DNA of 24,451 nucleotides, taken from the NCBI GenBank assembly GCA_002712305.1, contig PATE01000052.1, positions 1 through 24,451 on the forward strand. The letters run 5' to 3'. The notes under the pieces were generated by a model. That model had not been told where the DNA came from. It saw only the letters and a program-made list of their open reading frames with translations, and did no database searches. This document shows positions 2,333 to 23,289 of the stretch, piece after piece (the first letter of the stretch is position 1; the number at the start of each line of letters is the position of its first letter). A program made the position numbers and the translations under genes. Origin of the DNA: Gemmatimonadota bacterium (GTDB lineage: Bacteria > Latescibacterota > UBA2968 > UBA8231).

Positions 2333-3151
2333 ATGAACCCATCGATCACCACAGATGATCTCAGCCGGTATCATGAAGAAGGGTATCTCATTCTTCGCGA
2401 GGCGTTCAGCAGCGACCGCATCCTGTCACTTCGGGATGCCTTGGAACGCCTGATGGATCGCGCCCTGGCGGGAGAGATCGAAATCGGCTGGATTAACCAG
2501 GAACGCCGCCTGTTCAGTCGTACGGGTCACCTGATGTCACCGGATCGATACGATCCGGCGTATGGTGATTGGCTCGCGGAGGATCTCGATCCCCATTTAC
2601 AGACGCTATTGGGCGCCACACCGCGCCACAGCCTCTTCGGCACGCTGGCGGGCGGCGGGGGTCAATCGTACAAGCAGGCATGGCATCGTGATCTGGGCAG
2701 GCCCGGTGCAGATGACGAAGCTGAATACTATCGCCGCCATCACGGCACGTTCGTGCAGTTCAATGCGCCCATCCTGCCCGGGGATCGATTCCTCAACATC
2801 GTCCCCGCGAGCCATCTGCGAGCCTCAACTCCGGCGGAGATCGACGCCGCCGCTGCGGGCGACGAAGCCCAGATGCCGAACGCCCTCGTCGTCGAACTCG
2901 AACCGGGTGACATCGTCTATTACGACGCGAATCTCTGGCATCGGGGTTGGAACCCGGAGGGGGTCAATCGCTGGTCGATGCACTGTGCGTTCTGGCGTGC
3001 CGAATGTCCTGTCATGGCCCACGAGACCGGCCAGCAGGAAGACCTGCAACGCGCCGGTTACCTCGAGAGCATGCCGGCTATCGCTCGGGAGTATGTCGAG
3101 CGTTATCTGAGCAACCACCCCGATGAGCCGGCAAAGATGCAGGACCTGTAG
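2333..3151 (+). CDS. Phytanoyl-CoA dioxygenase (PhyH) family protein
   Basis: A 272-residue Fe(II)/2-oxoglutarate-dependent oxygenase of the PhyH superfamily, which hydroxylates or otherwise oxidises small molecules while converting 2-oxoglutarate and O2 to succinate and CO2. The N-terminus has the family opening (YHEEGYLILREAF, residues 13-25). Iron ligands are H118 and D120 in AWHRDLG and H203 in LWHRGW; R213, ten residues after the distal His, is placed to bind the 2-oxoglutarate carboxylate. The jelly-roll is complete, so the protein should be active. ATG at 2333 lies just after a purine-rich GAAAGAG. It is 30 bp downstream of the enolase-superfamily gene, suggesting the two act on related substrates. 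It ends 25 bp from the convergent PhyH gene on the other strand. Substrate unknown. Confidence 0.9.
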   Translation: MNPSITTDDLSRYHEEGYLILREAFSSDRILSLRDALERLMDRALAGEIEIGWINQERRLFSRTGHLMSPDRYDPAYGDWLAEDLDPHLQTLLGATPRHSLFGTLAGGGGQSYKQAWHRDLGRPGADDEAEYYRRHHGTFVQFNAPILPGDRFLNIVPASHLRASTPAEIDAAAAGDEAQMPNALVVELEPGDIVYYDANLWHRGWNPEGVNRWSMHCAFWRAECPVMAHETGQQEDLQRAGYLESMPAIAREYVERYLSNHPDEPAKMQDL

Positions 3152-3176: not shown

Positions 3177-4373
3177 TCACGACCATTGAGCGATGAAGTT
3201 GTCCACCGTCAACTCGGCCGGTACATCGTTGAAGAAGTAACTCGTCGGCCCGCCCTGGAAGCCCGGACAGGTGGCGTCCTGATCGCCCCTCAGCCGGTCG
3301 TCGACCCATCTGAATCGCTCCCACAACCGACCAGCCTCGGCCACAGAGAACCGATCTGCCATGGGCTGCCCACACTGCATGGTCATGGGATGGATTCCAG
3401 TGGCGTAGGAGAGTTCCTCCTCGGACACGCCGCTTGCCGGTCTCTTTAGGTCTTGAATTCGTTTGGCCGATTTGCTCAGCAGGATGGTGGACTGGCGCAT
3501 TGCCATGGAGCCGCTTTCCGGATGCAGATCCTGTAAGGCCTGCTGATACGCCGCCCCATCCGCTTCGAGAGCGGCCCTGAGGGCGATCTCGGTACGGGTC
3601 ATGGTATCATCGCTACGTTTGACCCAGCGCCCGAACGTCTCACGTGCTTGGGGCGAGAGTTGTTTGAGATACGACAGATTGGGATAGTGGGTGAACATGG
3701 AGAACCCACCGTGAATAGTGCGTCGCATTCTCGTGCTGTAGTTGCTCGCCCAGTGCAGGATCGGGAGGATGTACGCGACCCCATCCCCCGCCTTGAGATG
3801 CGTCTGAACACCGCTGCTCAGCGGTGCTTGGGCGTCTCGCTCCAATTGTGCGTTTTCATCCGACGTCAGGCAACGCACGTGGCTGCCGGGCACGACCCAC
3901 AGAACATCGTCGTCATACAGAGAGAGATTCCACTGTACATAACGAGGGCCGTTGTCGAGGATGTCTTCAGCATACCCCATCACGGGTGAGCTATGGGCCG
4001 GTGCGAAGTCACGGTGCCATCGTGCGGGACCGTGGTCTGAGACGGGACTGCACATGAGCATCATCTCCGTCACAGCGGCGTCCTCGACGCCGAGCAATTG
4101 GCTACTGGCGCCTTGCGTATTCTCGTGTAGCCAGATTTCGATGGTGCTCGCCGTGCTCTCGTCGATCTGATCGGCCAGACTCGTCAGGTTCAGACGTGGC
4201 TGCGCGGCCCTTCCCCACACGCCGTCCGGTGGATCCTCCTGTGCCCAGGTGGCTCGCTGGCGATCCACCATGATCTCGTAGCTGTGTCGTAAGCTGTCAA
4301 GTTGGTCGGGAGGGATGACTTGACGCAGAATCACATAGCCATCTTCGAGGAACTGCTGTCGATTCACGTCCAT
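3177..4373 (-). CDS. Phytanoyl-CoA dioxygenase (PhyH) family protein, long form
   Basis: A 398-residue PhyH-type Fe(II)/2-oxoglutarate oxygenase. Residues 6-20 (QQFLEDGYVILRQVI) are the usual family start. Iron ligands are H120 and D122 in ARWHRDF and H207 in ILHWAS, and R217 or R218 follows for 2-oxoglutarate. It is about 125 residues longer than the PhyH gene at 2333; the extra C-terminal part (about 235-398) is not recognised and includes a tail ending in a WS dipeptide. The frame stays open upstream to 4661, but that extension is low-complexity and arginine/serine-rich with no family similarity, so I start at ATG 4373 although its ribosome binding site (AAGGGCAG) is only moderate. It is last in a leftward gene set. 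Stop is TGA. Confidence 0.88.
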   Translation of the reverse strand: MDVNRQQFLEDGYVILRQVIPPDQLDSLRHSYEIMVDRQRATWAQEDPPDGVWGRAAQPRLNLTSLADQIDESTASTIEIWLHENTQGASSQLLGVEDAAVTEMMLMCSPVSDHGPARWHRDFAPAHSSPVMGYAEDILDNGPRYVQWNLSLYDDDVLWVVPGSHVRCLTSDENAQLERDAQAPLSSGVQTHLKAGDGVAYILPILHWASNYSTRMRRTIHGGFSMFTHYPNLSYLKQLSPQARETFGRWVKRSDDTMTRTEIALRAALEADGAAYQQALQDLHPESGSMAMRQSTILLSKSAKRIQDLKRPASGVSEEELSYATGIHPMTMQCGQPMADRFSVAEAGRLWERFRWVDDRLRGDQDATCPGFQGGPTSYFFNDVPAELTVDNFIAQWS

Positions 4374-4473
4374 CGTTCTGCCCTTGCAGGAGAGTCCATG
4401 CCGGCTCGAAAACGCAGTATCGTGTGCAGGGTACCCCCTCGGCAAGTCTCTTACCAGCAATGGGATAGAACGA

Positions 4474-4505
4474 GAAACGTCCCCCGAAAGATCGGCGGAC
4501 GTTTC
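4474..4505 (-). terminator. Strong hairpin between the 56-residue gene and the PhyH gene
   Basis: Perfect 9-bp arms GAAACGTCC / GGACGTTTC enclose a single C·C mismatch, a further CCG/CGG 3-bp stem and a 6-nt loop. It lies 32 nt past the stop of the small gene and about 100 nt before the PhyH start. On the minus strand it is followed by TCGTTCT, only moderately T-rich. A terminator or an mRNA-processing/attenuation stem are both possible. Confidence 0.5.
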
Positions 4506-4536
4506 AACCATTGATCTGCGAGAGCGCGCAGATGGA

Positions 4537-4707
4537 TTAGGCGACCAGGTCCAGCACGGTCTCCGCATCCTCCACGGGATGCTTCTGTGGCTCCTGGTCC
4601 TTCTTGCTCTGTTCCCGCCGGCGCCGGCGACGCTCTCGCTCTTCAGGCGTCGAGAGGGCATCGTTCGTGCGCAGTGAACCGGGTTCGATCCGGTTGATGA
4701 GATTCAT
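4537..4707 (-). CDS. Small arginine-rich hypothetical protein
   Basis: A 56-residue protein of unknown family. The start is well supported: a full AAGGAGG (4714-4720) sits 6 nt before ATG 4707. A 10-residue upstream extension is possible in frame but lacks such a site. The sequence has three parts: an uncharged start (MNLINRIEPGS), a middle block with a run of six arginines inside EERERRRRRREQSKKDQE (about residues 32-49 of the protein lie in or next to it), and an acidic, hydrophobic end (VEDAETVLDLVA). There is no cysteine, no signal peptide and no membrane segment. The charge pattern suggests nucleic-acid or partner binding, but this is inference. It sits between an M14 peptidase and a PhyH gene on the same strand, with hairpins on both sides, and may be its own transcription unit. 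Confidence 0.65.
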   Translation of the reverse strand: MNLINRIEPGSLRTNDALSTPEERERRRRRREQSKKDQEPQKHPVEDAETVLDLVA

Positions 4708-5995: not shown

Positions 5996-7534
5996 CTAGG
6001 AGAAGATCTCCTGAAACAACCGAGTTGTGCGCCGGCGCTCCTCGGCAATGCGGACCTCGATGAACAGCGGTTCACGATTGATCAGACGTTTCGACCAGGC
6101 GTGCAGGAACCCGGCGTAGCTGACGGTTCGATCGTATATGTCTTTAATGTCTCGATGATTCGTCAACTTCCCCGTCTCTTCATGGGGGCGCACCTGGTGA
6201 ATGTGATATCCCGTGATCCTGGATCCGATCCGCGCATACCAGTCGCCGATGGGCTGTAGGTTGCCGAGTTCGCCATTGTTGCGCGCATGGCCTACATCGA
6301 AATGGGCGCCGACACGCCCTGCCCCATCAAAGCTGCCGGCCACGGCATCGATCCACGCCAGACATTCACCGATCTCGGTGCCAAATTCGCGGCTGGCCCG
6401 ATCTGCCGGTGTGCCGGGCTGGTTGTGGATATTCTCGATCGAAACTCGAATACCCTCCTCGACGGACTCGCGGAACAGTTCGTGGTAGCAGTCCAGAAGG
6501 ATGCGCCAGGCGTCAGCGGGTTCATCACCCACTCCGTACATGCCCGCCGCTGTAATGCGGGGGACGTGTACCGTAAAGGAGTCGACCCCACAGGCACGGG
6601 CGTCATCGATCTGACGGGAGACCTCGGCTCTGCCGTCGATGTCGCACGACTTGGGGATCCACCTCAGATTCGGCAGATGCCAGGACAGGTAGACCGGTCG
6701 CTCCTGGCGCAGTGCATCCAGCTCCTTCACCGTCGCGGACAGATCGTAGTCGAGTTCGCGCGGGCGCAGTTCGAGGACATTCAGTCCCGCCTGACGTGTC
6801 TTTTTCACCGTCTCGAGGGGATCACCGTGGATCGACCAGCCCACGGGCGACTGATCCGTTGCCGCCGGCAGCAGACTGTGCTCATACGGCCACGGAATCT
6901 CGGTCTGCGACCAGTCGCCCCCGGCCTTCCGTTCGAAGAGGCAGATCCCGGGGGGACCATCGAAAGCCTTGTCGGGGTCGAGACCTCGAGTGATGACCTC
7001 CCAGCAGCCACTCACCGAGCGTGACCGGCTGAAGTGACGATGCCCTGCCAGGTACATCTCGACAGGATGTTTTTGAAGCCACGCTTCGATCCAGGAACGT
7101 GAGTCGGCCTCGAGCACATCGATCGGATAGTGGGTGAGGAGCACTCGGGGGGGCGTATCTGAGGCGCCCTCTCCGGTGAGCCATTCCCTGTCGTAGGGAG
7201 AAATCCGGCCACAGGAGGTGTCGGGCAAGAGAAACCGAACCCCGCCGAGTGACATCGACCGGCGCTCCGTGCATTGGGCCAGGACGCGCTGGGCGCCCGG
7301 ATCTCGCAGTTCGGCATTGCCGGGCGTGAAGACCCAGGGCGACGTCAGGGTACCGGCCTGTTCGAGGAAGTGACGCGCCGACGCCTCGGTGCCATAGGTC
7401 GTCATGTCGCCGGTGAAGGTCACCAGATCGGGAGATGATCTGTTGGATTCGGTAATCGCCCATCGCAGCGCATCGGCTGCAGGTGTGTCTTGCCTGTCGG
7501 ACAGGTGGAGGTCAGTAATCTGAATCAGTCGCAA
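5996..7534 (-). CDS. Fusion: calcineurin-like metallophosphoesterase + sugar phosphate isomerase/epimerase-type TIM barrel
   Basis: A 512-residue two-domain protein. Residues 1 to about 205 look like a metallophosphoesterase: D8-L-H10 (ITDLHLS), G42-D43 (FTGDMTTYG), G72-N73 (TPGNAE), H135 (LLTHYP) and H165-R-H167 (AGHRH). The usual GNH(D/E) motif reads GNAE, so the general-acid His is alanine (A74). Residues from about 228 to 510 resemble an AP-endonuclease-2/xylose-isomerase-like barrel, with candidate metal or acid residues E367 (SIENIH), D413 and H416 (FDVGHA), H444/H446 (YHIHQV) and E493 (FIEVR). The pair suggests a sugar-phosphate or nucleotide-sugar substrate handled by both domains, but that is inference. 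Start is TTG 7534 with AAGG 7 nt upstream. It is first in a leftward set with the M14 peptidase and divergent from an epimerase gene. The stop is TAG. Confidence 0.85.
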   Translation of the reverse strand: MRLIQITDLHLSDRQDTPAADALRWAITESNRSSPDLVTFTGDMTTYGTEASARHFLEQAGTLTSPWVFTPGNAELRDPGAQRVLAQCTERRSMSLGGVRFLLPDTSCGRISPYDREWLTGEGASDTPPRVLLTHYPIDVLEADSRSWIEAWLQKHPVEMYLAGHRHFSRSRSVSGCWEVITRGLDPDKAFDGPPGICLFERKAGGDWSQTEIPWPYEHSLLPAATDQSPVGWSIHGDPLETVKKTRQAGLNVLELRPRELDYDLSATVKELDALRQERPVYLSWHLPNLRWIPKSCDIDGRAEVSRQIDDARACGVDSFTVHVPRITAAGMYGVGDEPADAWRILLDCYHELFRESVEEGIRVSIENIHNQPGTPADRASREFGTEIGECLAWIDAVAGSFDGAGRVGAHFDVGHARNNGELGNLQPIGDWYARIGSRITGYHIHQVRPHEETGKLTNHRDIKDIYDRTVSYAGFLHAWSKRLINREPLFIEVRIAEERRRTTRLFQEIFS

Positions 7535-12021: not shown

Positions 12022-12070
12022 TCGCGCTGAGGCTGAAGATGATCCCCTCGCGAAAAGGCCATCGAGCAAC

Positions 12071-12901
12071 ATGCGCATCGATAAAACCAACTTCAGTGCC
12101 CTGACCGTAGGCGAACAGATCCGCCACTTCGAGGTGGAGGGATTCGTCGTGTTGCCCGATTTGCTCGACACGAACCACATACGTCGGCTCAAAGATGAAC
12201 TGGCCGACACACCCATGAAGAGCAAGAGTTATAGCGAGGCGCAGACTGTTTCCGTCACACCTCCACAGTGGGTCAGCCCCGCAGTCGCTGAGCTCATCGG
12301 GCACCCGCCCGTTGTCGAGTTTCTGACGGCGCTCATGGGGCCGGACATCGTGTATACGCGGGGTCACTTTCAGCGCACGAACCCTGGTTCTCCGGGTATC
12401 TCCCTGCACACCGATGGTCAACCCTTTGGTTCTTCACTGTTCGGCTATGAAGGCAGTTCACCGCGTCTGGTGCGGGTGCTCTACTACCTCGACGACCTGA
12501 TTCCGGAAAGGGCACCCTTCCGCCTGGTACCACGGTCTCACCTGTCCTTCCACGCGGATGCGAATCCGTATGGGCGATACGAATCGCACCCGGAGGAGAT
12601 CACCCTCTGTCCAAAGGCGGGTTCGGCGGTGGTGATTCCGAAGGATCTGTTTCATGGGACCCACCCCAATGACTGTACTTCACCAAGGGGCATGATTCAG
12701 ATGGGATATCGCCCTGCATGGGCGGGGCCCGTGCAACCGATGGAGGAGTGGGATTCTGCGTTGGTGGCGCAGATGCCTGAACAGGCCAGACCCTTCATGA
12801 AAAGCCTGAACACCACGGGAGAGCAGTGGGAGCAGGAGCACAAGCCGAAGGGCATGAAGAACGAGGCCCCCGGAATCAATCCGAGCCGATGGGAACGGTA
12901 G
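12071..12901 (+). CDS. Phytanoyl-CoA dioxygenase (PhyH) family protein
   Basis: A 276-residue PhyH-type Fe(II)/2-oxoglutarate oxygenase. The family opening (RHFEVEGFVVLPDLL) is at residues 18-32. Iron ligands are H113 and D115 in SLHTDGQ and H195 in DLFHGTHPN; R206 follows at the usual 2-oxoglutarate-binding distance. The region from 116 to 160 has the RVLYYLDDL and LVPRSH strands seen in this family. The frame is open back to a GTG at 11993, but those 26 residues lack family similarity, so ATG 12071 is preferred; its upstream region is only weakly purine-rich. The gene is divergent from the sialidase-like gene and converges with the CBM9-like pair after only 12 bp. The stop is TAG. Substrate unknown. 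Confidence 0.9.
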   Translation: MRIDKTNFSALTVGEQIRHFEVEGFVVLPDLLDTNHIRRLKDELADTPMKSKSYSEAQTVSVTPPQWVSPAVAELIGHPPVVEFLTALMGPDIVYTRGHFQRTNPGSPGISLHTDGQPFGSSLFGYEGSSPRLVRVLYYLDDLIPERAPFRLVPRSHLSFHADANPYGRYESHPEEITLCPKAGSAVVIPKDLFHGTHPNDCTSPRGMIQMGYRPAWAGPVQPMEEWDSALVAQMPEQARPFMKSLNTTGEQWEQEHKPKGMKNEAPGINPSRWER

Positions 12902-12913
12902 GTCGGTGCAAGT

Positions 12914-13702
12914 CTACGGTCGCAGCTCGACGACGGGATACGCCTCCGGCGCATAGAGCCCGGCATCGCCTGCGGCATGCCATGACCAACACGTCGAGAA
13001 TCGTTGCTGGCGTTGGTCGATGATCTGGTTCCGCGCCAGCGCCATCCGAAGACGATCACCAGCTGCTGGAGATGTCTCATCGTCCAGAAGATGAACCAAC
13101 CCTCTCCAGGGCAGCGCGATCTCGACGGTCCAGTCCTCGTCGAGATCGTGGCGTTCGTTGAGATCGCCAGACACGCGAGCAGCGCACTGCAACCCTTCCA
13201 TCGACCAGTTGTCAAAGAGCCAACGTTGTCCGCGCCGATGGTGGGGACCGCCATCACCACCGACCACGGCGGGGCGACACTGCGCGAGATTCAGATCGGG
13301 CACGTCGTATCGGCCACCCGCTTGATACGCATCCTTCCAGATGAACAGCAGTTCCTCCACATCACCAGCTGGATTGACAGAGAGCTGATATAGCGCCCCC
13401 TCGCTGGCGATGAAAACCTCAAAGGTATTCTCCTGCCAAGTCAATCCTCGACGCGCCTGGCCCGTCGTCCATACATCGTGCTCCTCCAGCCACGCCGCGA
13501 CATAGAGCGCCTCCTCGTCCCAGCTGACGGCCGCTTGTGTGTCAAAGAATGCGACGCCACCTGAGGAACTCGAGACGAAGCGAGTCGTTCGTGCCGCCTG
13601 ATTCCACATCGGTTCGTCGAGACGTCCGCGGATCGTAGACTTTCTGTCGGCGCGCTGCACGGGGTAGATGGCGTGGGGTGCGATGATGGTCACGTCGCTC
13701 AT
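12914..13702 (-). CDS. CBM9-like carbohydrate-binding domain protein (second of a tandem pair)
   Basis: A 262-residue protein made almost entirely of a CBM9/DOMON-like beta-sandwich. The opening strand motif is IRGRLDEPMW (about residues 24-33), equivalent to the family's IDGxLDExxW, followed by AAVSWDEEALYVAAWLEEHD, and ENTFEVFIASEGALYQLSVNP, where the latter matches the family's 'VEvfid..g.y.qf.vn' core. The end has DWTVEIALPWRGL. No catalytic domain, signal peptide or anchor is visible, which is unusual because most CBM9 modules are parts of secreted glycan-active enzymes. It overlaps the upstream gene by ATGA (13699-13702), so translation is coupled. It is a diverged paralogue of that neighbour. 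The stop is TAG. It may bind a sugar or another small ligand in the cytoplasm. Confidence 0.85.
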   Translation of the reverse strand: MSDVTIIAPHAIYPVQRADRKSTIRGRLDEPMWNQAARTTRFVSSSSGGVAFFDTQAAVSWDEEALYVAAWLEEHDVWTTGQARRGLTWQENTFEVFIASEGALYQLSVNPAGDVEELLFIWKDAYQAGGRYDVPDLNLAQCRPAVVGGDGGPHHRRGQRWLFDNWSMEGLQCAARVSGDLNERHDLDEDWTVEIALPWRGLVHLLDDETSPAAGDRLRMALARNQIIDQRQQRFSTCWSWHAAGDAGLYAPEAYPVVELRP

Positions 13703-14559
13703 TCGCCGGCCTCCTCGATCACCGCCTGCATCGCCGTGGCGGTGCTGACCTCCTGCTCGGACATGTGGATGTAGGTGAACTTTTCTGGGATGTGGGAGTC
13801 ATAGACGTGGTGCGAGTTGAAGGCCCAGCCGGGACAGATGCGCCGCCCGTCCTCCTCCATCCACTGAAAGCGTGACAGATCCATACGCCAGACATCGTCC
13901 TGACGGGGAGGCAGACTGCGCCCATCGGCTAGATGGGTCAATCCCGACCAGGGGAAGGAGATCTCGGCACTCCAACCCACATCCACATCGGTGTCGTCGT
14001 TCAACGTCCCCTGAAGGTCGACGGCCCACATGAGGCCGGGCATATCCCAGTTGCGAAAGCACCACCGCCGTCCCCGCGGATGGGCGTGGCCACTCCAAGT
14101 ACCCCCCAGCGTGTCGACAATACCCGGCGCGAGAAGATCGAACTCGGCAAGTTGATCATATCCTCCCGTCACGTAGGAATCCTGCCAGATGTAGAAACGC
14201 TCCATGATCGTGCCCAGCGAATTCAACTCGAACTCGAAGTAGGCATTCTCACCGGCGATGAACACCTCCACGTCGTTCTCTTGGCAGATCATGCAGTCCC
14301 GCTCTGTCTGAGTACCCCGCAGATGGGGTTCGGCACACCAGAACCCGACGTAGAGGTAGTCATCGTCCCACAGCAGCTTCGCCCATGTATCCAGCAGGGC
14401 CGGACGACCGGGCGTCTCCAGATCCTCGAAACGCGGCGACGGGGGCGCCAGCTTCCAGGCCTCGTCGTCGAGACGGCCATCGATCACGATAGGCCCATTG
14501 GCCCGGTAACATGTGTAGTGTTTCAAGTCCGTCTGGCTGTATCCCCAGTGATCCGTCAT
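13699..14559 (-). CDS. CBM9-like carbohydrate-binding domain protein (first of a tandem pair)
   Basis: A 286-residue CBM9/DOMON-like protein. The core begins with IDGRLDDEAW (residues 26-35), then TWAKLLWDDDYLYVGFWCAEP, NDVEVFIAGENAYFEFELN and, near the end, DVGWSAEISFPWSGL, the order of strands seen in the downstream paralogue. It has no signal peptide, no anchor and no catalytic domain. The start is ATG 14559, chosen because AAGGAG lies 5 nt upstream (14565-14570). The frame is open to 15000, but that extra sequence is the remnant of the TonB receptor in the same frame, not part of this protein. It overlaps the next gene by 4 bp. Insertion or deletion that removed the receptor's 3' end placed this gene about 75 bp after the remaining receptor sequence. 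Confidence 0.86.
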   Translation of the reverse strand: MTDHWGYSQTDLKHYTCYRANGPIVIDGRLDDEAWKLAPPSPRFEDLETPGRPALLDTWAKLLWDDDYLYVGFWCAEPHLRGTQTERDCMICQENDVEVFIAGENAYFEFELNSLGTIMERFYIWQDSYVTGGYDQLAEFDLLAPGIVDTLGGTWSGHAHPRGRRWCFRNWDMPGLMWAVDLQGTLNDDTDVDVGWSAEISFPWSGLTHLADGRSLPPRQDDVWRMDLSRFQWMEEDGRRICPGWAFNSHHVYDSHIPEKFTYIHMSEQEVSTATAMQAVIEEAGE

Positions 14560-14564
14560 GGAAT

Positions 14565-14570
14565 CTCCTT
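14565..14570 (-). promoter_or_regulatory. Ribosome binding site that fixes the CBM9-like start
   Basis: AAGGAG on the minus strand, 5 nt before ATG 14559. It shows that translation begins here and that the in-frame upstream receptor sequence is not an N-terminal domain of this protein. Confidence 0.75.
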
Positions 14571-14634
14571 CGTGAGGCGGAGTCAGGCCGACCCGCGAAA
14601 TCGGATAAGGAAACGTGTCCCTGATGAGCGATCC

Positions 14635-16226
14635 AATTTCGACCCCGCGTGCCGTCCCACTGGCCAGGTTGTCGTTCTGCACCGGTACGATCAGATGTAG
14701 CGGCCCCGGTTCATCGATCGTGTAGGGAACGCCCGGTTCCTGCGTGGTGACATCGTCGTATTCGTAGTAGAACAGGGCTGCGTCGAGAAATCCACTTCTG
14801 CCCAGTTGGGTTCGCAGGCCAGCGTCGATGACGAGCAGATCTTCGGCCTCCTCACGATCGCTGCCCAGCAGCGTAACGACGGCCTCGGGGGCTCCGGCAA
14901 ACAGCGAGTCGGGCCCAACAGCACCGATGGCGGCATTGGAATCATGATCTCCGCGGGAAGGTGTGCGCACGGCGCGACTGAGCCCCACCCACATCGACAC
15001 GGATCTGGAGGGTGAACCCCACAGACGCAGATTCGGCTGCCACTCCTACTGGGAAAACTATTGTGCTCCAGCTTCGTACCGGCTGAGATCGCCAGCCTCT
15101 GTGGCACCAGCTCGATGTCATCGTGCACGAGGCCACTGAACAGATGTGTCGTACGTGAAGCGGGATCCAGCTGCATCGTGAACGTGCCGTCGAAATCATC
15201 CCACGTCCGCCGGTATCCTCCGCCCCAGACCAGTCGATGGGAACCAAGGCGGAATCTGTGCTGTAGATCGACATCCGCGTTGTGGATGCGGCCGTGCAGC
15301 ACGGCCTCTTCGCGGTCGAACAGGTCGTAATAGGCCTGGATCTCAAGTTCGTGGTCGTCATCCCAGTGGTGGCGCCAGCGACCCAACACGTCGAGCGCCA
15401 GAAGATCGGCGTCGAAATATTGGGTGCGAGCCACTGCCGGGGAGGCCTGCATCACGAAGGTGACGCTCTGCCCTACACTGCCACCGCGCACATTGCCCAG
15501 AAGGGTCAAATGGTCCGCTGGGCCGCGTTCGACATCTGCGCGGAAGCCGACGCGCTGCATGTGCCAGTCATCCCGCACGGGCTTGTCGCCTGCAGCGGCG
15601 GAGCGACCCCGATCCATTCTCTCCGCATCGAAGCGAAGTCCGCCCCCGGGAATTGGACGACCGTGACGAAGGGCCAGCTGGCGACGTTCACTTCCTGCAC
15701 CCAGGTGCACGAAGGTTTCGGGCGTCGTGGCGGCCGGTCGGGTCACGACGTTGACAATGCCGTTGACCGCGTTGGCACCCCACAGACTACCCCCCGGACC
15801 TCGGATGATCTCGAGCCGCTCGACATCTTCCATCAACACGCCCTGAGATTCCCAGAAAACGCCGGAGAACAAGGGGGTGTAGACGCTGCGACCGTCGACG
15901 AGCACGAGCAGCTTGTTGGCGAACAAGCCTGCAAAACCTCGCGACGCGACGACCCACTTGTTCGCATCGACCTGTCCCACCTGAAAACCGGGAGCCAGTC
16001 GAAGGGCGTCGGGCAGCGAGTGCACGCCGATGCGACGCAACTCGTCACCGGTGAGTATCGCCAGGGCGGCGGGCGTCTCGGTGACTCGCTGAGGACGCCG
16101 TGAGACGAGGGTGACCTCGAGATCCATCAGTTCATCGAGACTGAGATTCGCGAGACCGGTCTTTGCATCTGCGATCAAGATGCTCAGCAGCAGGGCCGCT
16201 GAAGTTACGAGGACCCGATGGGTCAT
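14635..16226 (-). pseudogene. TonB-dependent receptor, frameshifted and truncated at the 3' end
   Basis: The ATG at 16226 starts an outer-membrane receptor with a hydrophobic signal-like segment (residues 6-20), then a clear plug domain: ETPAALAILTGDELRRIG, GFAGLFANKLLVLVDGRS, LEIIRGPGGSLWGANAVNGIVNVVTR. Barrel strands continue to TKLEHNSF near residue 390. There the frame breaks: the following family-conserved sequence (EWQPNLRLWGSPSRSV, then LSRAVRTPSRGDHD) is in another frame. Between the N of EHN and the Q of EWQP there are 20 nt where relatives would need 21, consistent with a 1-nt deletion. The second part continues about 140 residues to GTARGVEI near 14635 and then stops resembling a receptor. 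The last beta-strands, roughly 150 or more residues, are missing. A working receptor is very unlikely. The original substrate is unknown. Confidence 0.85.
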
Positions 16227-20392: not shown

Positions 20393-21910
20393 ATGGCTGT
20401 AATCAAGCAGGAAGACGTCATCCAAAGCGTCGCTGATGCGCTGCAGTTCATCTCCTACTACCATCCCGTCGACTTCATCCGCGCCATGCGTGCTGCCTAC
20501 GAGCGCGAACAGTCTCCCGCGGCCAAGGCCGCTCTGACGCAGGTTCTGGTGAACTCGCGCATGTGTGCCATCGGAAAGCGTCCGATCTGTCAGGACACAG
20601 GGATTGTCATCGTGTTCGCTGAGGTGGGCATGGATGTTCAGTGGGAGGCTGAGCTGAGCCTCGAAGACATGATCAACGAGGGTGTGCGGCGTGGTTATCA
20701 ATTCGAGGACAACGTGCTCCGGGCCTCAGTTCTGGCCGATCCCGATGGTACTCGCACCAACACGAAGGACAATACACCTGCCATCATCCACTACAGCGTC
20801 GTTCCTGGGGATGAGTTGAACATCGAGGTCGCCGCGAAGGGAGGCGGCAGTGAAGCGAAAGCGAAGTTCGCCATGCTGAATCCATCCGACTCGGTGGTGG
20901 ACTGGATCCTCGATGTGGTTCCCGGCATGGGAGCCGGATGGTGTCCGCCGGGCGTACTCGGCGTAGGAATCGGTGGCACACCCGAGAAGGCCATGTTGCT
21001 GGCCAAGCAGTCCATGATGGATGCGGTGGACATCCATGAGCTCCAGGAGCGAGGAGCTGCCAATCATCAGGAAGAGATGCGACTGGAGCTGTTTGACAAG
21101 GTCAATGCCCTCGGGATCGGCGCACAGGGCCTCGGTGGGATGACGACGGTCCTCGACGTCAAGGTGAAAGAGTATCCGACCCACGCAGCGAACAAACCTG
21201 TCGCTGTGATTCCGAACTGCTCAGCGACCCGGCACGTGCACTTCAGCCTCGACGGTTCCGGTCCGGCGGCCTTCGAACCACCGGATCTGAGTGAATGGCC
21301 AGAGATCGACTTTGATCTGGGCGACGATGTCAGACGCGTTGATCTCGATACACTCACACCCGAGGATGTGCAGACGTGGAAATCCGGCGAGACATTGCTG
21401 TTATCCGGCAAACTCCTGACGGGTCGTGACGCAGCACACAAGAAACTGATCGACTTGTTGGAGCGTGGTGAAGAAATGCCCGTCGACTTCCGCAATCGCG
21501 TGATCTACTACGTGGGTCCCGTCGATCCTGTGGGCGACGAAGTGATCGGCCCTGCCGGGCCGACGACGGCGACGCGGATGGACAAATTCACGCGGCAATT
21601 GCTGGAGGAAACGGGTCTGCTCGGTATGGTGGGCAAGGCAGAGAGAGGACCCGCTGCCATTGAGGCCATTCGCGACAGCAAGGCAGCCTACATGATCGCC
21701 GTCGGTGGCGCCGCGTATCTGGTCGCCAAGGCAATCACCAGTTCGAAGGTCCTCGCCTTCCCCGAGCTCGGTATGGAGGCGATCCACGAATTCGAGGTGA
21801 AGGACATGCCCGTGACCCTTGCCGTAGACTCGACGGGCCGCTCGGTGCACGAGGAAGGGCCGAAGGTGTGGTCCGGCAAGATCGAAAGCATTCAGGTGGC
21901 CGGCGCATGA
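20393..21910 (+). CDS. Class I fumarate hydratase (Fe-S, fused alpha and beta parts)
   Basis: A 505-residue class I fumarase-type hydro-lyase, which interconverts fumarate and malate in the TCA cycle using an oxygen-sensitive [4Fe-4S] cluster. The alpha part has C66 (ICQDTG), KGGGSEAKAK (149-158), C184 (GWCPPG) followed by VGIGG, and C276 in NCSATRH. The beta part (about 300-505) carries GPAGPTTATRMD (386-397), the family's substrate loop. It is somewhat shorter than E. coli FumA (548 residues) and fuses both parts, as in that enzyme. Related L(+)-tartrate dehydratases share this fold, so the exact substrate is probable rather than certain. ATG 20393 has GAGAGG close upstream; the open frame back to 20291 is not family-like. 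It overlaps the PhyH-HEAT gene by ATGA, so they form an operon. The stop is TGA. Confidence 0.92.
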   Translation: MAVIKQEDVIQSVADALQFISYYHPVDFIRAMRAAYEREQSPAAKAALTQVLVNSRMCAIGKRPICQDTGIVIVFAEVGMDVQWEAELSLEDMINEGVRRGYQFEDNVLRASVLADPDGTRTNTKDNTPAIIHYSVVPGDELNIEVAAKGGGSEAKAKFAMLNPSDSVVDWILDVVPGMGAGWCPPGVLGVGIGGTPEKAMLLAKQSMMDAVDIHELQERGAANHQEEMRLELFDKVNALGIGAQGLGGMTTVLDVKVKEYPTHAANKPVAVIPNCSATRHVHFSLDGSGPAAFEPPDLSEWPEIDFDLGDDVRRVDLDTLTPEDVQTWKSGETLLLSGKLLTGRDAAHKKLIDLLERGEEMPVDFRNRVIYYVGPVDPVGDEVIGPAGPTTATRMDKFTRQLLEETGLLGMVGKAERGPAAIEAIRDSKAAYMIAVGGAAYLVAKAITSSKVLAFPELGMEAIHEFEVKDMPVTLAVDSTGRSVHEEGPKVWSGKIESIQVAGA

Positions 21911-23289
21911 CAGACCAGGCCTTCCGTCTCAGCGATGCACAGATGGCACAGTTCATCGCCCACGGCTACGTGACCATCACGCCCGATCTGCCGGATGAAT
22001 TCCACGCGGAGGTCTTCGCCAAACACGAGGAGGTCTTCGAGCAGGAAGGAAACCCAGGCAACAATCTCCTTCCCCGCATCCCCCTCGTGCGCCAGGTCTT
22101 CGATCACCCTTCCGTCGTCGGCGCTCTGCAAAGCGTGTGTGGTGACGATTACTATCTACAGCCCCATCGTCATCCCCACCACAACAAGGCCCACAGCAAG
22201 GGTCAGAACATGCACCAGGATGGCGGAAAGCGCTGGTCGCACCGTACCCGATATCTGCTGGCCTTCTACTATCCGCAGGATACGCCTCTGGAGCGGGGGC
22301 CCTCGGGAATCGTCCCGGGTAGTCACTACTTCAATACCCCCGAAGGTGCCCGCATTGACGGCGAAGTGCCTCTCGTGACGCCGGCTGGCACGGTGACCAT
22401 CACCAACTATGATCTGTGGCATCGTGCCATGCCCAACACCAGCGATCAACACCGATACATGGTGAAGTTCCTCTTCGCCAGAATGTCCGAACCGGTGTTG
22501 CCTGCGTGGAACAACAGGCGAGCCGGCTGGCCCGGAATCGATCCGGCACTGCCCGGCGACGGGGCTGAACTGCAGAAGATTTACGCCCACGTGTGGCATT
22601 GGAACCTCGGCGACGGCTCAGGCGCCCTGCCCACCCCCGAGGGTTCGCCCGCCGAGTTGTTGGACACGCTCGCAGGGGAAGACGAACGTGCCGGCATCGC
22701 CGCCGCGTACGATCTTGCGGCCCTGGGCCAGGACATGGTGCCGGGTCTCATCGAGAAGTTGGGCGAGGAATCTGAAATGAGCCGTCGAAATGCGGCCTAC
22801 GCACTCAGTGCCATCGGCGCCCCGGCTGTGGGAGCCCTGATCGACGCCCTCGGCCAGACCAACACCAGTACCCGCACCGATGCGGCTACCACTCTCGGTG
22901 ATATCGCGCTGGCCGCCGATGCGGCGCTACCGGCCTTGGTCGCATCCTGCCAGGACAAACACGAGGATGTTCGGAGGGCCGCCGCCGAAGCATTGGGAAC
23001 GGTTGGACAATACGAACCTAATGTGGTCCCCACCTTGATCGACGCCGTCACCGACGACCACGTCGGCGTGCGCACGGCGGCGGTCTTCGCCCTTTGCCGA
23101 CTTGGCCCCCAGGCAGCAGAGGCCGTTGAGGCGTTGGAAGGAGTGCTCGACGATGAGAACCGCTATGTCCGTGGTGACGCTCTCCACGCCCTGCAACGCA
23201 TTGACACGTCTCAGGCCAAGGATGCATTGATCAAACATCTGATGCCGGCCCGTTGGTGTCCGATCACCAGCCCGGAATCCACGTTCTGA
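21907..23289 (+). CDS. PhyH oxygenase fused to C-terminal HEAT repeats
   Basis: A 460-residue two-part protein. Residues 1 to about 230 are a PhyH-type Fe(II)/2-oxoglutarate oxygenase: opening QMAQFIAHGYVTITPDL (12-28), iron ligands H103 and D105 in NMHQDGG, distal H172 in DLWHRAMPN, and R183 (QHRYMVKF) for 2-oxoglutarate. From about 258 to 433 there are roughly five HEAT/PBS-like repeats, recognisable by the recurring pattern RRNAAYALSAIGAPAVGALIDAL, RTDAATTLGDIALAADAALPAL, VRRAAAEALGTVGQYEPNVVPTL, VRTAAVFALCRLGPQAAEAVEAL, which form an alpha-solenoid for protein binding. The start is ATG 21907, overlapping the fumarase stop by 4 bp; the longer frame back to 21868 lies within the fumarase coding region. 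It converges with the FG-GAP gene after 30 bp. Function of the fusion is unknown. Confidence 0.9.
   Translation: MTDQAFRLSDAQMAQFIAHGYVTITPDLPDEFHAEVFAKHEEVFEQEGNPGNNLLPRIPLVRQVFDHPSVVGALQSVCGDDYYLQPHRHPHHNKAHSKGQNMHQDGGKRWSHRTRYLLAFYYPQDTPLERGPSGIVPGSHYFNTPEGARIDGEVPLVTPAGTVTITNYDLWHRAMPNTSDQHRYMVKFLFARMSEPVLPAWNNRRAGWPGIDPALPGDGAELQKIYAHVWHWNLGDGSGALPTPEGSPAELLDTLAGEDERAGIAAAYDLAALGQDMVPGLIEKLGEESEMSRRNAAYALSAIGAPAVGALIDALGQTNTSTRTDAATTLGDIALAADAALPALVASCQDKHEDVRRAAAEALGTVGQYEPNVVPTLIDAVTDDHVGVRTAAVFALCRLGPQAAEAVEALEGVLDDENRYVRGDALHALQRIDTSQAKDALIKHLMPARWCPITSPESTF

Follow-up and report, generated by a model that had tools for sequence, protein, structure and literature searches.

The locus raised the question why an oxygenase of the PhyH type should be fused to a HEAT-repeat solenoid, i.e., whether the repeats hold a protein partner or are built into the enzyme itself. 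We analyzed a DNA stretch of 24,451 nucleotides, here called the window. At window positions 21907–23289 (plus strand, as are all features of this gene) it contains one uninterrupted open reading frame of 460 amino acids, from ATG to TGA, whose start codon shares bases with the stop codon of the class I fumarase gene upstream (ATGA). The encoded protein starts with a PhyH domain (residues ~1–240), followed by HEAT repeats (residues ~248–445). GC3 was similar in both halves (0.73 and 0.72, respectively), and dN/dS relative to the nearest orthologue was about 0.06 for the PhyH and about 0.10 for the HEAT part, both rough values given the high dS. The fusion in a single gene, as put forward in the original prediction, was confirmed by the open 460-residue frame and by both Pfam domains, which occur in the same order in homologues. 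At the level of sequence, this shows an intact gene under purifying selection for a predicted Fe(II)/2-oxoglutarate (2OG) oxygenase of the PhyH type, fused to a HEAT solenoid.

The PhyH part (residues 1–240, positions 21907–22626) matched Pfam PhyH (PF05721) over residues 49–183 with E=4.2e-10 and 40.7 bits, compared with a curated cut-off of 22 bits. In the AF2 model, residues 5–195 superposed on FtmOx1 (7etk) with Z 15.7 and rmsd 3.1 over 187 residues, a match that identifies the predicted fold as the double-stranded β-helix, with moderate local pLDDT. The iron ligands H103-x-D105 (22213–22221) and H172 (22420–22422) make up the 2-His-1-Asp triad, and R183 (22453–22455), eleven residues after H172, is the predicted 2-oxoglutarate-binding arginine. 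All four residues stand exactly where they had been claimed and were conserved to 100% in 79 aligned family members, as were M185, K187 and R192. The family alignment further contained a W230-x-W232-x-x-G235 motif at the junction of the PhyH and HEAT parts (22594–22611).

The solenoid spans residues 248–445 (22648–23241). It matched Pfam HEAT_2 (PF13646) with E=8.6e-27 and 93.7 bits (cut-off 27.7), and its model, built of helix pairs, superposed on the alphaRep structure 4zv6 with Z 21.6 and rmsd 3.1 over 201 residues. HEAT repeats were thus present as predicted; the count of about five was slightly low, since DSSP analysis of the model gave six helix pairs, i.e., six full repeats, plus one helix. 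N418-R419-Y420 is a conserved mark of the last full repeat in the 79 aligned members. The length from residue 241 to the C-terminal tail described below is nearly fixed: no repeat was gained or lost, save for one extra N-terminal repeat in 13 of 92 tail-bearing members. In 44 of the 92, repeat 2 includes an 18-residue loop that has a conserved motif as well, DNAHGTNP or a variant thereof. Sister clades (L036:1480-2937 and relatives) have an 18-residue insertion in repeat 2 after the position of residue 289, in which AKTPDNAHGTNPT, or a variant of it, is the conserved motif. In clades without a tail the repeat-2 insertion is shorter, e.g., HTNPSQ.

If the solenoid bound a protein, its groove might be conserved. 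We assigned concave and convex positions by analogy with the alphaRep repeat and found the predicted concave B-helix positions more conserved than the convex A-helix positions (JS 0.457 versus 0.328, permutation p 1e-4). When only the orthologue group was considered, identity was 0.53 on the concave and 0.29 on the convex side (p 0.001). The groove check hence turned out positive, but structural consensus residues in HEAT B helices inflate this difference; concave conservation is therefore supportive and not proof of a ligand.

Gene neighborhoods of family members bear on the same question. Neighboring families were GFO/IDH/MocA (5 of 55), the enolase superfamily (4 of 55), sugar-acid dehydratase and sulfatase. 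Fumarase adjoins the gene within the genus only; in one orthologue it is a sulfatase gene that shares four bases with the family gene. In the neighborhoods of family members we found no constant partner gene and no neighbor conserved beyond the genus. The nearest solved PhyH domains are those of SptF, FtmOx1, KanJ and SnoK, all small-molecule oxygenases. Because of the sugar and sugar-acid neighborhoods and these small-molecule relatives we lean towards metabolite oxidation, and by this analogy a small molecule is a more likely substrate of the PhyH-HEAT enzyme than a protein, with the caveat that the neighbor genes may be background of genomes rich in these families.

The window contains three more PhyH genes without HEAT repeats, at 2333–3151 (plus), 3177–4661 (minus) and 12059–12901 (plus). 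At 5999–7534 (minus) lies another unusual fusion, of a calcineurin-like phosphoesterase (residues 1–167) with a xylose-isomerase-like TIM barrel (residues 244–463). A TonB-dependent receptor at 13699–16226 (minus) is apparently split into a plug (14691–16226) and a barrel remnant in an overlapping frame (13699–15000); the latter frame runs into a CBM9-like domain, and a frameshift or sequencing error is likely.

In the original prediction the solenoid was taken to point to a protein-modifying or protein-tethered oxygenase, where the HEAT groove would bind a protein or peptide that PhyH hydroxylates or that holds PhyH in a complex. The concave conservation and the known protein binding by HEAT and alphaRep grooves speak for this. 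With the B-helix consensus inflating the former, closest PhyH structures that act on small molecules, and no conserved neighbor as a candidate partner, we nevertheless consider it rather unlikely. Of the original proposal, the fusion as a conserved functional unit was strongly supported; the protein substrate or partner was not.

A second feature suggests that the solenoid belongs to the enzyme. The protein ends in an invariant 12-residue C-terminal tail, RWCPITSPESTF (residues 449–460, positions 23251–23286), identified in homologue alignments and by a genome pattern search. In a first set, RWC began exactly 12 residues before the C-terminus in 63 of 63 tail-bearing sequences; place 6 is T, place 9 mostly D or E, and the chain ends in Y or F, rarely in H. 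A larger set of 137 full-length members had the 12-mer in 92, a divergent RWD version in six and no tail in 39. All 92 tail-bearing homologues conform to (R/H)WC[PSA]-[hydrophobic]-T-...-[FY]-COOH with exactly 12 residues at the end, a single one having HWC instead of RWC. This position is exact although the whole proteins are often only about 40% identical. Between the last HEAT helix and the tail there are hardly any residues and no flexible linker. Tail-less paralogues exist and retain the catalytic residues.

The second conserved mark lies in the PhyH domain. The loop EGNPGNNLLPR (residues 47–57, positions 22045–22077), just after helix 2, is conserved as E-GNPGNN-LLPR in the 79 aligned members. 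In the window's genome, GNPGN encoded by GGNAAYCCNGGNAAY was found in five PhyH-HEAT genes, the only further occurrence being a 42-residue frame that is no PhyH gene, and the three nearest stand-alone PhyH paralogues lack GNPGN. N53 within this loop was present in 98 of 98 members with a tail and in 0 of 39 without, and is the sole position of the PhyH domain that separates both groups perfectly. The divergent clade with RWD for RWC near the C-terminus (L091:4009-5604, plus; L038:7506-9164, minus) retains N53. The tree shows three changes of the tail and three of N53, of which a single independent pair falls on strongly supported branches; because only three tree changes underlie the association, it is not statistically independent. 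Mean-field DCA on 92 sequences (Neff 34–55) yielded noise and no coevolution signal.

In PrhA, the loop after helix 2 (Loop A, residues 57–69) and a hairpin at the C-terminus of the other chain are lids over the substrate, i.e., an element of the partner chain helps to close the active site (PMC5760668). Judged from secondary structure and numbering, the GNPGNN loop would sit at about the same topological place as Loop A. Because of the PrhA lids and this like position, our proposal is that the 12-mer is carried to the loop by the HEAT arm. The solenoid would curve and place the RWCPIT...F-COOH peptide onto the GNPGNN loop, either of the same chain or, by a swap, of the partner chain in a dimer, like the partner-chain hairpin of PrhA. 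Paralogues might vary solenoid loops and groove according to substrate; the substrates would most likely be small metabolites from the breakdown of sugars and organic acids. Both AF2 models left the tail at pLDDT <50 and showed no docking; the modelling did not place the tail because the alignment, with 10 sequences, was shallow. We tentatively favor this reading as a whole, i.e., a HEAT solenoid integral to a 2OG oxygenase, a tail that docks on the PhyH lid loop and substrates that are most likely small metabolites. A role within the chain or in a dimer would account for the invariant tail and the marked PhyH loop no less well than a protein partner would. This suggests that the solenoid is probably built into the enzyme, with active-site closure as its likely role, and is not merely a hook for another protein. 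The family could possibly, and here we are more cautious still, represent a new 2OG oxygenase architecture in which a HEAT arm carries an invariant C-terminal peptide to the active-site lid, in cis or in a dimer, with many paralogues in one class.

The nearly fixed solenoid length would also be explained if HEAT repeats and tail formed a dimer interface that only stabilized or oligomerized the protein and contributed to neither catalysis nor specificity. Tail-less paralogues with intact catalytic residues are consistent with this, and some tail-less genes adjoin tail-bearing ones, fitting heteromers. By itself, however, a dimer interface does not account for N53 and GNPGN as marks of the fusion close to the presumed lid, and we regard this explanation as improbable. 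In at least two genomes a tail-less PhyH-HEAT gene lies directly upstream of a tail-bearing one (L084:3989-6741, minus; L136:1435-4181, plus), and such pairs could give a heteromer.

Alternatively, the 12-mer might be a docking or sorting tag for a separate receptor, e.g., a scaffold or microcompartment, with the HEAT part only as spacer. Its exact distance from the chain end and its terminal aromatic residue, which bears the free carboxylate, would agree with this, and microcompartment genes are reported in Poribacteria (PMC3909097). A general tag would be expected to be shared, but in the window's genome only PhyH-HEAT proteins were found to carry the tail: a search with its DNA pattern gave four sites (C21, C57, C73, C83), all of them ends of PhyH-HEAT genes. 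Further pattern sites outside the obviously listed family genes were, among those fetched, family HEAT ends, of which a few lie in truncated frames. One site (G021:C53) ends in TGG without a stop codon and presumably arose by chance, and the reversed pattern as a control gave 0 matches across 40 genomes. As the tail is limited to PhyH-HEAT genes in the window's genome, we down-weighted a general C-terminal tag. Moreover, the missing flexible linker and an N53 that tracks the tail argue against a tag, and we deem it distinctly improbable. Docking of the tail on the lid loop stays our preferred reading.

The fusion is widespread in its class. The window's genome (4.77 Mb, 146 contigs) contains four more clear paralogues (C21, C57, C83, C7) and a distant member of 643 residues (C44), giving at least six PhyH-HEAT genes. 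A strong match with the same domain order was found in 39 of the 40 nearest genomes. Of the 47 class genomes, counting the window's own, 46 have family members, often in three to ten copies. The homologue search thus answered in favor of a conserved fusion. The lone class genome without a match (G003) gave HEAT-region matches only, at a looser threshold. Outside the class, 17 genomes of the same phylum gave one marginal match. Independently assembled named records of Candidatus Poribacteria and 'Gemmatimonadetes' MAGs have the same architecture. Reach outside the phylum was assessed by one genome-collection scan, which extended to close relatives. A scan of viral contigs found no relative, and a plasmid search gave PhyH or HEAT matches only separately, without a fusion. 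That two genes were joined by chance read-through or in the assembly is practically impossible; we rejected this explanation, because homologues in 46 of 47 class genomes, with several paralogues each and in independent assemblies, keep the fused order, and dN/dS is low in both halves.

Both parts have known counterparts. The fungal and bacterial PhyH-type oxygenases SptF, FtmOx1, AusE/PrhA, KanJ and SnoK share the fold, the HxD...H triad and the arginine for 2OG; they are about 20% identical to the window protein, and none has a HEAT solenoid or RWC tail. Repeats of the HEAT/PBS-lyase type (PF13646, PF03130) and designed alphaReps share the repeat sequence and predicted solenoid, from which the window protein differs in its PhyH fusion, nearly fixed repeat number and invariant 12-mer. 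The phycobilin lyases CpcE and CpcF share the use of bacterial HEAT-like repeats in enzymatic work, but lack a PhyH domain. We rejected an assignment as phycobilin lyase, as scores fell far below the NCBIfam equivalog cut-offs (CpcF 35.8 versus 220 bits, CpcE 34.4 versus 330 bits). The C-terminal part of the model for a bacterial enzyme, the PRK13800-type fumarate reductase flavoprotein, also matches these HEAT repeats, but that enzyme has another catalytic domain, and the window protein scored 38 bits against a cut-off of 1196.

Kamke et al. (2014, PMC3909097) describe a poribacterial PhyH expansion, with very many PhyH genes in the same kind of organism. The whole genome of the window (G000, 4.77 Mb) has 152 PF05721 matches, in line with the extreme PhyH abundance reported for Poribacteria. 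Its main text does not mention the HEAT fusion ('HEAT', 0 occurrences). In the open-licence literature we found no paper that joins 'phytanoyl-CoA dioxygenase' with 'HEAT repeats', and no description of fusion or tail. Both domains and the poribacterial PhyH expansion are hence known, while the HEAT fusion and the tail would be new as far as the open literature that we searched shows.

These bacteria have PhyH genes in extraordinary numbers, most of them without a known role. A conserved subfamily with an invariant C-terminal peptide is a concrete and easily tested handle on PhyH function. If the proposed docking is true, it could be a new way of completing the active site of a 2OG oxygenase with an α-solenoid.
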